Shown one piece after another: positions 51,403 to 58,747 of a DNA stretch of 64,000 nucleotides; positions within the stretch are counted from its first letter, which is position 1, and each line of letters opens with the position of its first letter. Origin of the DNA: Thermoflexus hugenholtzii JAD2 (GTDB lineage Bacteria > Chloroflexota > Anaerolineae > Thermoflexales > Thermoflexaceae); contig NZ_FYEK01000077.1 of NCBI RefSeq assembly GCF_900187885.1, positions 1-64,000 on the forward strand, in the 5' to 3' direction. The notes under the pieces are model-generated. The model was not told where the DNA came from, did not search any database, and saw only the letters and a list, made by a program, of their open reading frames with translations. The position numbers and the translations under genes are program-made.

Positions 51403-52248
51403 TCACGGCGTCCAGAACCGGCCGAAGCCCAGGGCGGCGGCGGCCATGGACCCGAAGAACAGGGCGGCGCTGAGGCCCAAGAGGAGGAAATCGTGGCGCT
51501 GGAACCGCAGCTCCGTCAGCCAAGTGCGGCGTCCCACGCCGAAGGCCCGCAGGTCCATCGCGTCGATGATGTCCTCGGCGGCCATCAGGGCGTGCAGGGT
51601 GACCGGTACCACCAAGGGCGCGAGGCGCCGGATTTGGGCGATGGGGCCGCCGCGCACGTTCTCCAGCTCATATCCCCGGGCCCGCTGGGCATCCATAGTT
51701 TGCATGGCGTCCCGTCCCAGGGTGGGGATGAAGCGGAAGGCCAGGTCCATGGCGTAAGCGATCTTGTCCGGCAGACCCAGGCCCCGGAAGACCACGCCAT
51801 ACTGGGAGGGATCCAGGGTATAGGGGATCAGGATGGCAGCGGTGATCACCGTCCCCATCCGGCACATCTGGCTGAGGGCGAAGAAGAGGCGCTCCACCGT
51901 GATAGGGATGGCCGGGGTCCACCCGAACAGAGAGATCGGCAGGACCAAGCGGGCCAGCAGCCGCTCCGTCTGATAGACCTCAAAGCCTCCGCGGCCGGTC
52001 AGGAACGTGATGAACACGAACACGAAGGCCACGAAGCCGGTGAACAGCCAGGCCCGACGGGTTTCCCGCCAGGTCAGCCGGTTCAGCCGGAAGTAGAGGA
52101 GGGCCAGGCCCCACAGGCCCGCCAGCACCCGCACGTCCCAGAAGAAGAGGGTGGAGAGCATCAACGAAAGGGCGGCGAGCAGACGAGCCCGCGGGTCGAA
52201 GGCCTCCAGGAAGCTGCCCCGCCGTCGATAGGGCCATGTCACCAGCAC
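51403..52248 (-). CDS. ecfT: ECF transporter transmembrane component EcfT
   Basis: A 281-residue EcfT with about five helices and the coupling motif ARG twice-like: LRAFG (about 238-242) and QRARGYEL (about 201-208) match the Ala-Arg-Gly signatures that contact the ATPases. The start is taken as GTG 52248, because GAGGAGG lies six bases upstream; an ATG in the right place is absent. It is the last gene of the A-S-T operon. Transports a vitamin or metal together with the S component. Confidence 0.83.
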   Translation of the reverse strand: MLVTWPYRRRGSFLEAFDPRARLLAALSLMLSTLFFWDVRVLAGLWGLALLYFRLNRLTWRETRRAWLFTGFVAFVFVFITFLTGRGGFEVYQTERLLARLVLPISLFGWTPAIPITVERLFFALSQMCRMGTVITAAILIPYTLDPSQYGVVFRGLGLPDKIAYAMDLAFRFIPTLGRDAMQTMDAQRARGYELENVRGGPIAQIRRLAPLVVPVTLHALMAAEDIIDAMDLRAFGVGRRTWLTELRFQRHDFLLLGLSAALFFGSMAAAALGFGRFWTP

Positions 52249-52282
52249 CGGGCCCTCCTCTTCCAGACGCGGAGACCCTGGC

Positions 52283-53185
52283 TCATGCCACCCCGGCGCC
52301 CCGGCCCAGTTGCTGCTGCAGGGCGTTGTAGGCGCCCACCAGCAACGGGGTGAGGATGGCCGCGTGGAGGATGTTCGGTCCCGCCGCCGGCACGAACTCC
52401 CCAAGCAGGGCCACCGCGGGCGGATAGCCGTTGATCCAGATGTCGGCGATGGCCGCGAAGCCGATGCCCACGATGTTGGCCACCGCCCCCCAGACGATCA
52501 CTGAGGCCAGGGCGATGTTCCCTCCCAAAGCGAACCGCAGGGCCACCACCAGGGCCGCACCGATGAGCGGCACCCAGCGCATCAGCGGGCTGAGGGGTCC
52601 GCCGAAGAAGGGGCTCTCAATCTCGGTGGTCATCGCCCACAAGCTCAGCGCCACCCCCACCGCGGCCACTACACCGGTGAGGATGTTCAGGGCCCGCTCG
52701 CGCCCCAGGATCACCGGCAGCCCGGCCACCAGGCCGACCAGGCCGTTCCCGATATCCCACGCCGGGAACACCCCCCAGCCGGTAAGGAAGTCCCCCAGGA
52801 TGTTGCCCACGGCCCCGGTGAAGAAGCCGACAGCGGGTCCGAAGACGTAGCCGAAGAAGACCGGGAAGACGATGGCCGGGCGCAGCGCCACCTGACTCAC
52901 CGAGGGGACCACGAAGACGGTGCCATTGAAAAGATAAGAGAAGACGCCGTAGAGGGCAGCGCCGATGGCCATATACACGACCTCACGGGTGCCGATCTGC
53001 CAGGCCGGATGATCCGCGGTGGCGAAGTAGATGATGTAGACGATCACGGCCCCGATGGCCACCCAGAGCAGCCAGCCGAAGCCCTGCAGCCGAACTCCCT
53101 CCGGCCCGGTCATCAGGCTGGCCAGCCCCATCAACAGGACGACCACGATCAATAAGATCAGCCAGGTCAGAGCCTTGCGCGCCAT
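52283..53185 (-). CDS. ECF transporter substrate-binding S component, substrate unknown
   Basis: A 300-residue membrane protein of about eight helices, longer than the usual 180-200 residue S components. Features: N-terminal extra helices (ALTWLILLIVVVLLMGLASL), VYMAIGAALYGVFSYLFNG, LRPAIVFPVFFGYVFGPAVGFFTGAVGN and GDFLTGWGVFPAWDIGNGLVGL. The last two are standard S-component blocks. No riboswitch is seen upstream of the operon, so the cargo cannot be named. ATG 53185 has AGGAGG upstream. Confidence 0.8.
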   Translation of the reverse strand: MARKALTWLILLIVVVLLMGLASLMTGPEGVRLQGFGWLLWVAIGAVIVYIIYFATADHPAWQIGTREVVYMAIGAALYGVFSYLFNGTVFVVPSVSQVALRPAIVFPVFFGYVFGPAVGFFTGAVGNILGDFLTGWGVFPAWDIGNGLVGLVAGLPVILGRERALNILTGVVAAVGVALSLWAMTTEIESPFFGGPLSPLMRWVPLIGAALVVALRFALGGNIALASVIVWGAVANIVGIGFAAIADIWINGYPPAVALLGEFVPAAGPNILHAAILTPLLVGAYNALQQQLGRGAGVA

Positions 53186-53213
53186 GGCCGCCTCCTGAGA
53201 TAAGGATGCTCCA

Positions 53214-53232
53214 CCCTCTTAAAGAAAGAGGG
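53214..53232 (-). promoter_or_regulatory. small hairpin between ecfA and ecfS genes
   Basis: CCCTCTT (53214-53220) and AAGAGGG (53226-53232) form a 7-bp stem around five bases in the 62-base gap between the ATPase and S genes, with an AT-rich flank. Could tune relative expression within the operon. Confidence 0.4.
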
Positions 53233-53247
53233 CTGGCTTCTCTTCAA

Positions 53248-54897
53248 TTATAAAGAATCACTCCCAACACCCTGGAGCCAGGCGCACAGGCGCTCGGCCC
53301 GCATGAAGCGGCCGGTTCGGGGAAGATACTGGCGGTTCGCCTCCAGCAGAGAGGTCGGGACCAGCCGCCCCCGGCGCATCACCTCCGGATCGCTCAGCAC
53401 GGCCTCCGGGGGGCCGTCGGCGATCAGCTGACCATCCGCCATCACCCAGATGCGGTTGGCGAAGGAGAGGGCCAGATCCAGATCATGGGTGATGAACACC
53501 AGGGCGTCCGCTGCCTGGGCCGTCCCGAAGACCAGCTCGGCGATGGCGTTCATCAAGCGCATGCAGGTCTGATAGTCCTGGCCTGCCGTGGGCTCGTCCA
53601 TCACCAGGATCCGGCTCCGCATGCTGAGGACCGAAGCGATGGTCACCCGCTTCTGCTGACCGAAACTCAGGGCCCATGGGGAGGAGCGGGCCTGGTCCAG
53701 CAACCCCACCTGCTCCAGGGCCCAGCGGACGTCGGCTTCGACCTGATGGGGAGGGCGGCCCAGGTTCCGGGGCCCGAAAGCCACCTCCTCCCACACCGTG
53801 GGGGCGAAGAGCATATGGCTGGGGCTCTGGAACACATAGCCGATGGTGCGGGCGATGCTGGCCACCGTCTGCGCCCGTGTCTCCTTTCCTCCGACCCAGA
53901 CCCGGCCCCTTCGGGGCTTGAGCAGCCCCATGGCCAGCTTCAGCAATGTCGTCTTGCCTGCGCCGTTGGGGCCGAGGATGGCCAGGCTGTCCCCTTTCCG
54001 GATCTCCGCCTGGATCCCCCGCAGCACATCGGGACCATCTCCGTAGCCGAAGGACACGTCCTCGAAGACAACCAGCGGAGGCGCGGTGGGAGAGGCCGGA
54101 GGGATCTCCACCCCCGGCGTCGGGCGCCGCGTCAGCGCCGACCAGCGCTGAAGCCAGACCCGGAACGGAACCTTCACCGCGGTCGGATCCACGCGTTCGA
54201 AGAAGGACTCCGGATCCCCATCGAAGACCAAGCGTCCGTCCTCCAAATACAGCACCCGCCTGGGGCCCGCCTGGAGGGCGTCCTCCACCCGATGCTCCAC
54301 CAGCAGGATGGTGTGACCCTCCCGATGAAGCTGGCGGAAGACCGCCAGGGCCTCCTGGGCGCTCTGGGGATCCAGGGAAGCGAGGGGCTCGTCCAGCAAC
54401 AGGATCCGTGGGGCCATGGCCAGCACCCCCGCCAGGGCCACCCGCTGCTTCTCCCCCCCGGAGAGCTGGAACGTGGGCCGATCGCGCAGATGGGCGATCC
54501 CCAGGGCGTGCAGGACCTCCTCCACCCGCTCCAGGATCTTCGCCCGTGGCCAGCCCAGGTTCTCCAGCCCGAAGGCCACATCGTGCAGCACGTCGGCGGC
54601 CACAATCTGACGCTCCGGATCCTGAAGCAGGGTTCCCACCTGCTGGGAGAGCCGGGCCATGGGCCATGCGCGGGGATCGTGGCCCCCGATGCGGATGGTG
54701 CCTCGCAGCTCCCCTTTGTAGCTGCGGGGGATCAGCCCGTTCAACGCCCGCAGGAGGGTGCTCTTCCCGCAGCCGCTCGGGCCGGCCATCAAGGCCATCT
54801 CCCCCTCCTCTAGGGCGAACGAGAGGTCGCGGATGGCCGGCTGCGGCCGCGCCGCATAACGGAACGTGAGCTCGCGAACCTCCAGGATCGGACCCAT
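53248..54897 (-). CDS. ECF transporter double ATPase (EcfA1-EcfA2 fusion)
   Basis: 549 residues with two full ABC domains in one chain. Domain 1: Walker A GPSGCGKST (39-47), signature LSGGEKQRV, Walker B ILLLDEPLASLDP. Domain 2 (from about 275): Walker A GPNGAGKTT, signature ALSFGQQKRV (LSFGQ, degenerate third position), Walker B ILVMDEPTAGQDYQ. The Q-loops and H-loops are present. Energises the S and T proteins downstream. The unequal signatures suggest asymmetric ATP sites. First gene of the operon, ATG 54897. Confidence 0.9.
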   Translation of the reverse strand: MGPILEVRELTFRYAARPQPAIRDLSFALEEGEMALMAGPSGCGKSTLLRALNGLIPRSYKGELRGTIRIGGHDPRAWPMARLSQQVGTLLQDPERQIVAADVLHDVAFGLENLGWPRAKILERVEEVLHALGIAHLRDRPTFQLSGGEKQRVALAGVLAMAPRILLLDEPLASLDPQSAQEALAVFRQLHREGHTILLVEHRVEDALQAGPRRVLYLEDGRLVFDGDPESFFERVDPTAVKVPFRVWLQRWSALTRRPTPGVEIPPASPTAPPLVVFEDVSFGYGDGPDVLRGIQAEIRKGDSLAILGPNGAGKTTLLKLAMGLLKPRRGRVWVGGKETRAQTVASIARTIGYVFQSPSHMLFAPTVWEEVAFGPRNLGRPPHQVEADVRWALEQVGLLDQARSSPWALSFGQQKRVTIASVLSMRSRILVMDEPTAGQDYQTCMRLMNAIAELVFGTAQAADALVFITHDLDLALSFANRIWVMADGQLIADGPPEAVLSDPEVMRRGRLVPTSLLEANRQYLPRTGRFMRAERLCAWLQGVGSDSL

Positions 54898-56310: not shown

Positions 56311-56316
56311 AGCACC

Positions 56317-56344
56317 GGGGGCACAGGTTGAGACCTGTGCCCCC
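56317..56344. terminator. perfect 12-bp hairpin between convergent genes
   Basis: GGGGGCACAGGT (56317-56328), loop TGAG, ACCTGTGCCCCC (56333-56344), directly after the aminotransferase stop and before the capA-like 3' end. Probably bidirectional. Confidence 0.7.
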
Positions 56345-56352
56345 AAGCGTTC

Positions 56353-58083
56353 TCACTCCGGCATCAGCGCGAACAACCACTCCAGCAGCGCCCGACGCTC
56401 CTCCGGGGTCATCGGGCGCGGACGGGCGAGATCCTCCAGGAAGGCCGTCCGCAACAGCACCCCCAGATATCGCCCCTCGTAGAACACATGCCAGTCGATG
56501 AAGGTCTGCCGGACCCCGATGGGATCCACCTGGTCGAAGAACAGGTTCCCCAGCCCGTAGTGGATGAACCACCCCGGCCCCACCTCAAAGGTCTGCGCGT
56601 GGTGGCCCTGGCTGCCGCTGACGATCACCGCCCCCAGATCCCGCCAGAACCGGAAGTCCTGGACCTGCTGAGGGGTCGGGGCGTAGTCGTAGAACTCCCA
56701 GTATTGCAGGGTAACGATGGGGAGCCACCCCTCCGCCCGCAGGCGACGGACGGCCTCATGGAGTTCCGGCACGCACGGGGCCGCCCCCGGCTCCGTCGGG
56801 GTGGCCCAGTCGTAAGCCGGGCCCACCGGGTTGCAGCCCACGAAGGCCAAGCGGTTCCCGTTGTGCTCGATCTGCAGCGGCCGCAGGGCCTCCTCCAGGT
56901 TCTCCCCACCCCCGTAATAGCGCATCCCCAGACGCCGGTAGAGGGCCAGCGTCTTCCGCAACGGCTCCTTCCCGTAGTCCGCCAGGTGGTTCCCGGTGAG
57001 CTCCACGATGTCCGTGCCGATGTAGGTCAACAGCTCCACGTAACGGGGATCGCTGCAGAACACCACCCCGCTCCGGGGCCGCGGGGGTGGACACCCTTCC
57101 CAGAATGAGACCTCGTTGCTGATGTGGGTGAGATCCGCCCCCTGTAGCCACGGGGCGATATCCCGAGCCGGGAACAGGACCCCGTAACGCTCCATCTGGA
57201 CCGCCGTGCCCCGCACCAGGGCGGTGACCCCTGTCATCGCCAGGATCGTCATCCGATCCTCATCCCGGTTTGTGAGCTTCCCCACCGCCCGCTGGAGTTC
57301 CCCTGTCGGGAACCCTGGGGAGGCCGACTCCACACCGAACCCCACGGCCAGTGGATACCGTCGGGGATCCAGGCCGCGCTCCATGGGGGAGAGGCCATCC
57401 ACCGCGATCACCTTCAGCCGGGGCTCCAGGCGGTGGAAGGGGACCAGGGCCCAGGCCGGGCGCGTCGCCCACAGGCGATCCACCAGCTCCGCCTCCGGGA
57501 CCGGGATCACGACCTGGGGATCCGGGGGCCCCCACCACGCCGCAAACAATCGCATGGTCTCCGGGGCGACGAAGAGAGGCCCGGGGAGGCTGGCCTGACC
57601 CTGCCAGCGCGCCCGCAACGCGGCGAAGGAAACCCCGTCGGTCACGGTGGGGAACGGCGCGGCCAGCGCGTAGATCCACATCCCCAGACGTCCGGGGTCG
57701 TCTGGAGAGACGGGACCGATCTCCACCCCGGAATCGCCGACCCCCCAGCGGGGATCCCGAGCGAGGCGCTGCGTGATCTCCGACCGCACCTCCTCCGGAA
57801 GGGCCGGATGCAGGCGGATCGGCCAGCGGGCCGGCGTCGGGATCGGCGAGGGGAGCGGGGAAGGCGCCGCGGTGGGGGTAGGATCCGGCGGCGCAGCGGA
57901 TTCCCCCCAAGCCCCGCACCCGGCCAGGAAGACCAGCAGCAGGATCCGCCCCAAGCCCTTCTTAAGAGAAAGGATCCCGGAGGACGTGTCATCGCGATGC
58001 GAGGAAGATGGGGACCGGACAACCCCGCCCGCGCCGACCCGGCCCCGACGGGTTGGGATCCGCGTTCGCTTCCGGTCGCTCAC
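56353..58083 (-). CDS. CapA-family lipoprotein (metallophosphatase-like PGA_cap domain)
   Basis: 576 residues. The start GTG 58083 overlaps the JAMM gene stop (GTGA). A basic head is followed by a hydrophobic stretch with lipobox LAGC (Cys56), so the true start may be an internal one closer to the signal (a TTG near residue 44 has an AAGAAGGG Shine-Dalgarno). A Pro-rich linker (about 66-85) and a beta-rich N-region precede the CapA domain (about 270-560), with TGVTALVRGTA, THISNEVSFWEG, LTGNHLADYG and SGSQGHHAQTFEVGPGWFIH, YGLGN. CapA proteins take part in surface polymer production. Confidence 0.82.
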   Translation of the reverse strand: MSDRKRTRIPTRRGRVGAGGVVRSPSSSHRDDTSSGILSLKKGLGRILLLVFLAGCGAWGESAAPPDPTPTAAPSPLPSPIPTPARWPIRLHPALPEEVRSEITQRLARDPRWGVGDSGVEIGPVSPDDPGRLGMWIYALAAPFPTVTDGVSFAALRARWQGQASLPGPLFVAPETMRLFAAWWGPPDPQVVIPVPEAELVDRLWATRPAWALVPFHRLEPRLKVIAVDGLSPMERGLDPRRYPLAVGFGVESASPGFPTGELQRAVGKLTNRDEDRMTILAMTGVTALVRGTAVQMERYGVLFPARDIAPWLQGADLTHISNEVSFWEGCPPPRPRSGVVFCSDPRYVELLTYIGTDIVELTGNHLADYGKEPLRKTLALYRRLGMRYYGGGENLEEALRPLQIEHNGNRLAFVGCNPVGPAYDWATPTEPGAAPCVPELHEAVRRLRAEGWLPIVTLQYWEFYDYAPTPQQVQDFRFWRDLGAVIVSGSQGHHAQTFEVGPGWFIHYGLGNLFFDQVDPIGVRQTFIDWHVFYEGRYLGVLLRTAFLEDLARPRPMTPEERRALLEWLFALMPE

Positions 58084-58517
58084 GGCGAGACATCCTCCAC
58101 CAGCCGGATGGGAACCTCCCGCACCTGGCCGTTCACGATCCGGAAGGCCCGCAGACGCCATTCCCCCTGGACCGGGGCGGCGATCAGGTAGACGGACTCC
58201 GGGTAATAGGCCTCGGCCACGTCGGTCGGAGAAGGGACCGGGGGGCCGTGGGGATGGGAATGATAGATCCCCACCAGCTCCCAGCCTCGGGACTCCAGCT
58301 CCTGCACCACTCGGATGAGATCCTCGGGGTGGACGCGGTAGCGGACCGGGCTGGCCAGCTCGTTGCGGACCGGATACACCTGCAGCACCCGGCGGCCTAC
58401 GCCTCCGAGCAGCCCGCAGGCCTCCAGGGGCCACTCCGCCTGGACGTGGGTGAGGATGCGGGCCGCATGCGTTGGGCTCAGAAATAGGGGTTCCGCTTCC
58501 GGATCCAGATGGCCCAT
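58080..58517 (-). CDS. JAMM/MPN-family metalloprotease
   Basis: 145 residues. The full zinc site is present: Glu32 (EACGLLGG), His86-x-His88 (YHSHPHG), Ser96 and Asp99 (PSPTD), with exactly seven residues between His88 and Ser96. Prokaryotic JAMM enzymes trim C-terminal residues from ubiquitin-like sulfur carriers. Here the gene overlaps the TusA-like gene by 40 bases and the CapA-like gene by four, so the three are translated together. ATG 58517 has GGGGAGGGTG upstream. The substrate protein is not encoded nearby. Confidence 0.9.
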   Translation of the reverse strand: MGHLDPEAEPLFLSPTHAARILTHVQAEWPLEACGLLGGVGRRVLQVYPVRNELASPVRYRVHPEDLIRVVQELESRGWELVGIYHSHPHGPPVPSPTDVAEAYYPESVYLIAAPVQGEWRLRAFRIVNGQVREVPIRLVEDVSP

Positions 58518-58747
58518 GCACCCTCCCCAATCGGCTCCACCCGGAGCACCTCGTCCCCCTGCACGGCCACGCTGCGGGGGACGTTGTGGGTGGCCGGCTC
58601 GTAATCCACCAGCACCCGGAGCACCTGGCCCACCTCCAGCTCCTCCAGGGCCAGGCGCGTCTTCACGTAGGTATATGGGCATACCTCCCCCCGGATGTCC
58701 AGCTCCCGGGTCGGGCGGAGCGCCTGGATTTCCCGTTCCTCCTGCAT
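58478..58747 (-). CDS. TusA/SirA-family sulfurtransferase
   Basis: 89 residues with the fold pattern LDIRGEVCPYTYVKTRLALE. Cys23 is the persulfide cysteine, though the usual CPxP reads CPYT. The second half has LRVLVDYEPATHNVPRSVAV. TusA-like proteins pass sulfur to tRNA, cofactor or dissimilatory pathways. First gene of a three-gene overlapping operon with the JAMM protease, suggesting a sulfur-carrier processing route. ATG 58747 has GGAGGGG upstream. Confidence 0.87.
   Translation of the reverse strand: MQEEREIQALRPTRELDIRGEVCPYTYVKTRLALEELEVGQVLRVLVDYEPATHNVPRSVAVQGDEVLRVEPIGEGAWAIWIRKRNPYF

Follow-up and report, generated by a model that had tools for sequence, protein, structure and literature searches.

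The genes of a TusA-family protein and of a JAMM/MPN+ metalloprotease overlap by exactly 40 bases in the genome of Thermoflexus hugenholtzii. We give a probability of about 0.6 to the reading that both proteins form a translationally coupled pair within a carrier-activation relay, the remaining parts of which are encoded elsewhere in the genome. Systems of this type were recognised from their gene neighbourhoods as early as 2006, and the gain is therefore a sharper hypothesis rather than a new kind of biology. What is new is the dispersed arrangement alone, i.e., TusA and JAMM coupled, with E1 and carriers at other places. The gene of a CapA lipoprotein, which follows that of JAMM, is most likely a bystander.

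Gene anatomy of the locus

The window, i.e., the whole stretch of 64,000 nucleotides that was analysed, belongs to contig C77 of a 3.2 Mb Chloroflexota genome. A first reading made from the sequence only had placed a TusA, a JAMM and a CapA gene in it, and all three assignments were confirmed, on the minus strand (Table 1). TusA scores 76 bits against Pfam PF01206 (cut-off 28.6), JAMM 83 bits against PF14464 (Prok-JAB, cut-off 25), and CapA 125 bits against PF09587 (PGA_cap, cut-off 27). Upstream of tusA lies a divergent HAD gene and downstream of capA a convergent aminotransferase gene, so that the same-strand run consists of these three genes only. Positions 51403-54897 of the window hold an ECF-type transporter cluster with a riboflavin-type S component, a double ATPase and a T-like component.

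Table 1. Features of the locus in window positions, with the basis of each assignment.
Feature	Position	Strand	Basis
TusA-family protein, 89 aa, motif DIRGEVCPYTYVKTRLALEE (Cys23)	58478..58747	-	PF01206, CP[Y/M]T clade
JAMM/MPN+ metalloprotease, 145 aa	58080..58517	-	PF14464, zinc site, AlphaFold model
TusA end/JAMM start overlap, 40 bases	58478..58517	-	same length in relatives
Shine-Dalgarno-like GGGGAGGG inside tusA, ahead of JAMM ATG	58521..58528	-	sequence
CapA/PGA_cap lipoprotein, signal LLLVFLAGC, start uncertain	56353..57954	-	PF09587
Terminator-like hairpin 3' of capA	56315..56346	-	one match, the number expected by chance

The length of the TusA-JAMM overlap, as given in that first reading, is identical in G208 and in the loci L016, L017 and L018, where the loci measured beyond G208 are those of Ca. 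T. sinensis, JZ-3 and Ca. T. japonica. For the SKYG36 locus (L019), the ORF coordinates also yield 40 bases. The motif GGGGAGG/GGGGAAGG is situated a few bases 5' of the JAMM ATG and is kept in four other Thermoflexus loci; judged by its letters, this putative ribosome-binding site is strong. In a sample of 151 Chloroflexota genomes, JAMM occurs within about 1 kb of TusA in six other genomes, for which a rough chance estimate is 0.2.

The layout as first described, one overlapping operon of three genes, was thus confirmed in part. It is limited to TusA and JAMM, because the additional overlap of four bases between JAMM and CapA could not be verified. Such an overlap requires the doubtful GTG start at 58083, which is located 55 residues ahead of the lipobox cysteine; the other start candidates of CapA are the TTG at 57954 or a position further upstream. 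In three other, more distant Thermoflexus species, JAMM stops five codons earlier, CapA begins at an ATG just ahead of the signal peptide, and the spacer between both genes (about 210, 250 and 388 bases) is unconserved in sequence.

It is highly improbable that TusA, JAMM and CapA form a single three-protein unit, e.g., for a surface-tied sulfur chemistry. The gene order is kept in the five Thermoflexus genomes with enough sequence (G000, G208, L016-L018), and no promoter-like site was found between the three genes. However, the HAD and aminotransferase neighbours are syntenic across the genus as well, so the shared position of CapA is weak evidence. Outside Thermoflexus, no CapA was seen beside a TusA-JAMM pair. 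Furthermore, TusA and JAMM are cytosolic types, whereas CapA is a lipoprotein. With an adjacency seen in the genus only and a long, unconserved spacer within it, the functional link to CapA considered initially is unsupported, and CapA was rejected as a module member. The window CapA is the sole CapA of the genome, and its predicted structure (pLDDT 43) is too poor to use.

Relatives of TusA, JAMM and E1

The window TusA carries the N-terminal Cys-Pro pair (C23-P24), and its closest solved structure is TM0983 (1jdq). A CPxP motif was sought in this protein and is absent, with CPYT in its place; the motif of E. coli TusA is CPEP. Against the NCBIfam equivalog of the E. coli type, NF001423, the protein reaches 17.2 bits, below the cut-off of 78. 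We searched 350 Chloroflexota genomes with a profile that combines the window TusA with those of its relatives that are linked to JAMM. Eight genomes match at E < 1e-37, and the next matches follow at 1e-25 and weaker. All members of this group carry CPYT or CPMT, and the motif is therefore a clade feature. What had been taken for a changed motif is present as described, but it represents the signature CP[Y/M]T of the clade; the idea of a damaged motif was rejected.

Most TusAs of this clade outside Thermoflexus adjoin sulfur genes. Locus L007 shows the order Rrf2, CysM, ThiS-ThiF fusion, YeeE-type transporter, TusA (CPYP), rhodanese, TusA (CPYT), JAMM and CysM, and L006 the order E1, TusA, JAMM and LarE-like. 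ThiS-ThiF is found together with TusA in L040 and L041, the latter additionally with a CysO-like protein and CysM. In the Anaerolineae genome G386, ferredoxin, TusA, JAMM, E1 and NifU_N follow each other, and TusA and JAMM either overlap by 31 bases or, if another start is chosen, are separated by about 8. G397 and G362 have a TusA-E1 arrangement. The closest relatives of the window TusA hence reside in operons with E1, ThiS, CysM and often JAMM. This comparison of genomes supports the initially suggested sulfur relay, but not the altered motif or the tie to CapA.

The Thermoflexus genome contains two further TusA-family genes. On contig C3 (L013:3904-6672), a TusA with the motif CPMP is located between a small DsrE-looking protein and genes that look like heterodisulfide-reductase-type iron-sulfur subunits; this is probably a separate sulfur-trafficking cluster. 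In two Anaerolineae genomes, a DUF169 gene lies directly 5' of the TusA region (L203:7849-9519, L204:4678-5376).

The zinc site of the window JAMM is complete, with E32, H86-S-H88, S96 and D99 (pattern E...H-S/T-H-x7-S-x2-D), and its AlphaFold model has a pLDDT of 87. The top PDB match of the model is the Pyrococcus furiosus JAMM1-SAMP2 complex (5lda, Foldseek E 2e-12). JAMM1 (5lda, 5ld9) is the closest solved relative by both sequence and structure and shares fold and zinc site, but it is archaeal and SAMP2-bound. A standalone JAMM that lies beside plsY in other Anaerolineae is sister to the Thermoflexus protein in the JAMM tree (96/87), and a direct kinship with the TusA-linked JAMMs is weakly rejected (AU p = 0.038). 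As the tree separates Thermoflexus from these proteins, its TusA-JAMM pairing may be of separate origin. A second JAMM of the genome, encoded on contig C12 in an operon with CysM, CysO, E1 and rhodanese, belongs to a different deep class (100/100).

Two E1 enzymes are encoded in the genome, on contigs C12 and C31. That of C12 is fused to rhodanese. That of C31 (274 aa) is free of rhodanese and ThiS domains and, with 275.8 bits, lies above the cut-off of 266 that NCBIfam sets for MoeB. No rhodanese-less E1 was found near the TusA-JAMM pair in Thermoflexus; it sits on C31. Within a class sample of 80 genomes, the closest matches of the C31 enzyme outside the genus are those of G397 and G386 (63 and 61% identity). 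Both adjoin a CPYT TusA, and the E1 of G386 also adjoins JAMM. This can be set beside the observation that operon-encoded rhodanese-less E1s of this type accompany SirA/TusA (PMC1779556).

In all four Thermoflexus genomes seen, the C31-type E1 is followed by plsY (L065:8556-10085 in case of the Thermoflexus E1), and the sister JAMM occupies the plsY-adjacent place in five other Anaerolineae loci (L120, L125, L126, L129 and L130). As far as gene order can tell, this shared neighbour is a putative indirect link between JAMM and E1. An inferred ancestral TusA-JAMM-E1-plsY cluster that dispersed would explain all three arrangements, although the JAMM tree keeps the Thermoflexus protein apart from TusA-linked JAMMs.

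Sulfur carriers and the proposed relay

A ThiS search of the genome yielded eight matches, one of them within a long RelA-like protein. None is located on contig C77, which agrees with the earlier remark that no ThiS/MoaD-like carrier is nearby. The genome was also expected to provide a sulfur carrier with a C-terminal extension, and several are present. Residues past Gly-Gly are found in five carriers, namely a MoaD-MoaE fusion, a CysO-like carrier, an AOR-linked carrier and two small others, those of contigs C27 and C78. In the five Thermoflexus genomes, ThiS ends exactly at Gly-Gly wherever found, the CysO-like carrier ends in GG-RSPGS, GG-RR or a longer tail, and MoaD is joined to MoaE after Gly-Gly in every case. 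The tails of the AOR-linked carrier and of the two small ones are short and variable. Tailed and fused carriers should have to be cut before they can be adenylated. The MoaD-MoaE fusion is encoded on contig C66 (L025:1024-1767). On contig C3 (L067:7156-10006), three ThiS/MoaD-like genes lie by an aldehyde ferredoxin oxidoreductase, and one of them is without terminal Gly-Gly (MGMLYC).

The fusion is common in the phylum. It occurs in 58 of the 123 MoaE-bearing genomes of the 151-genome Chloroflexota sample, some of which combine it with a single JAMM. It predicts JAMM no better than separate genes do (57 of 58 vs 63 of 65, p = 1), and was rejected as a phylum-wide predictor for want of a specific association; in one genome with the fusion, G131, no JAMM was seen.

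In the proposed relay, TusA would hold a persulfide on the cysteine of its CPYT motif, and JAMM would remove tails or fused domains from ThiS/MoaD-like carriers such that the C-terminal Gly-Gly becomes exposed. The separate rhodanese-less MoeB-like E1 of C31 would adenylate this end, and TusA would then provide the thiocarboxylate sulfur, in the same manner as sulfur comes to MoaD from TusA, with MoeB, in E. coli (PMC5372717). Candidate carriers would be the MoaD-MoaE fusion, serving the molybdenum/tungsten cofactor, the aldehyde-oxidoreductase-linked carrier and the other tailed carriers. For the fusion there is a precedent in Deinococcus, where the activation of MoaD-MoaE depends on a JAMM that cuts it (PMC8832034). 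Both the cooperation of TusA, JAMM and the C31 E1 in Thermoflexus and the choice of carrier are inferred. Against the relay stand the absence of carrier and E1 near the pair in Thermoflexus, the placement of its JAMM in the tree, the two further TusA-family genes, and the lack of a specific association between the fusion and JAMM. The JAMM of C12 could trim carriers, too, and some genomes with the fusion make do with a single JAMM. A more tentative version, which is possible though hardly the first choice, regards the pair as a shared station, where one protease, one persulfide donor and a common E1 serve several tailed carriers; translational coupling would then keep the trimming of carriers and the delivery of sulfur at a constant ratio.

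Other readings of the pair differ in what JAMM is thought to cut. It might mainly act as a desampylase that frees protein-conjugated ubiquitin-like carriers, with TusA as a partner only in sulfur supply. The fold match to a SAMP2-bound enzyme points in this direction, as does the top NCBIfam match of the window JAMM, which is a desampylase, although with 89 bits under the cut-off of 130. Moreover, HvJAMM1 is known to cut linear fusions as well as isopeptide bonds (PMC8832034). On the other hand, the contexts of the TusA relatives are those of sulfur assimilation, often with JAMM included, and the genome has tailed and fused carriers that require linear cleavage. We consider a mainly desampylating role rather unlikely. 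Quite unlikely is also a service in cysteine synthesis, where JAMM would trim the CysO-like carrier and TusA would feed it, after the pattern of thiosulfate/cysteine operons in other Chloroflexota. Such a role would suit the variable tail of this carrier (RSPGS and others), and in other lineages CPYT TusA and JAMM are indeed neighbours of CysM and ThiS. But the Thermoflexus CysO lies in the CysM-JAMM-CysO-E1-rhodanese operon of C12, and we demote the window pair as CysO processor because that operon has its own JAMM, which is of the different deep class. The E1 encoded there has its own rhodanese domain, and no YeeE thiosulfate transporter was found in the Thermoflexus genome. An operon of JAMM with CysM and CysO is seen for the C12 protein and not for the window JAMM.

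Finally, the adjacency of TusA and JAMM may be nothing but a relic: both genes would once have belonged to an ancestral operon and would no longer work together. The scattered remainder of the presumed ancestral cluster, with E1 adjoining plsY, is what this would leave behind. We judge it very unlikely, as the overlap of 40 bases, the ribosome-binding site and both active sites have been kept while other spacers diverged. The relay with dispersed parts remains our preferred reading.

Comparison with known systems

SirA/JAB/E1/ThiS operons were described by Iyer et al. in 2006 (PMC1779556). Their type 4e combines SirA/TusA, JAB/JAMM, a rhodanese-less E1 and ThiS/MoaD with sulfur assimilation genes. 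Thermoflexus shares the TusA-JAMM operon, its genome has the rhodanese-less E1 and the carriers, and its TusA relatives sit in operons of this kind. In contrast to type 4e, E1 and carriers are found outside the operon, and there are no assimilation genes alongside. Formally, the pair is outside the type, since its operon lacks E1 and carrier, but most likely it works like a 4e operon.

Similar to Deinococcus radiodurans, where the JAMM DR0402 cuts the MoaD-MoaE fusion DR2607 (PMC8832034), Thermoflexus has a JAMM and a fused MoaD-MoaE with Gly-Gly at the junction; it differs in the coupling to TusA and in having two JAMMs, and cleavage is here a prediction. With the IscS-TusA-MoeB-MoaD relay of E. 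coli (PMC5372717) it has in common a TusA-family donor, a rhodanese-less MoeB-like E1 and MoaD, whereas the E. coli relay has no known JAMM step and its MoaD is unfused. The sulfur-carrier module as such is of interest and unsurprising. It connects the TusA proteins of the CP[Y/M]T clade with processing by JAMM and with E1 enzymes that lack rhodanese, and it names concrete candidate substrates (the MoaD-MoaE fusion and tailed carriers) in a group of which one thermophile, T. hugenholtzii, is in culture.

The Mec+/CysO/CysM cysteine system (types 4c and 4d, PMC1779556) likewise employs a JAMM to trim a carrier with residues past Gly-Gly, but in Thermoflexus it corresponds to the separate C12 operon with its own JAMM. 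This operon (L015:4939-8955) is complete, with CysM, JAMM, a CysO-like carrier, a membrane protein, thioredoxin and E1/rhodanese, and is close to the known type 4c. Thermoflexus was proposed as a possible cysteine auxotroph (PMC8129789). By its gene content, the C12 operon resembles a route to cysteine that depends on a carrier, one that a module search could miss.
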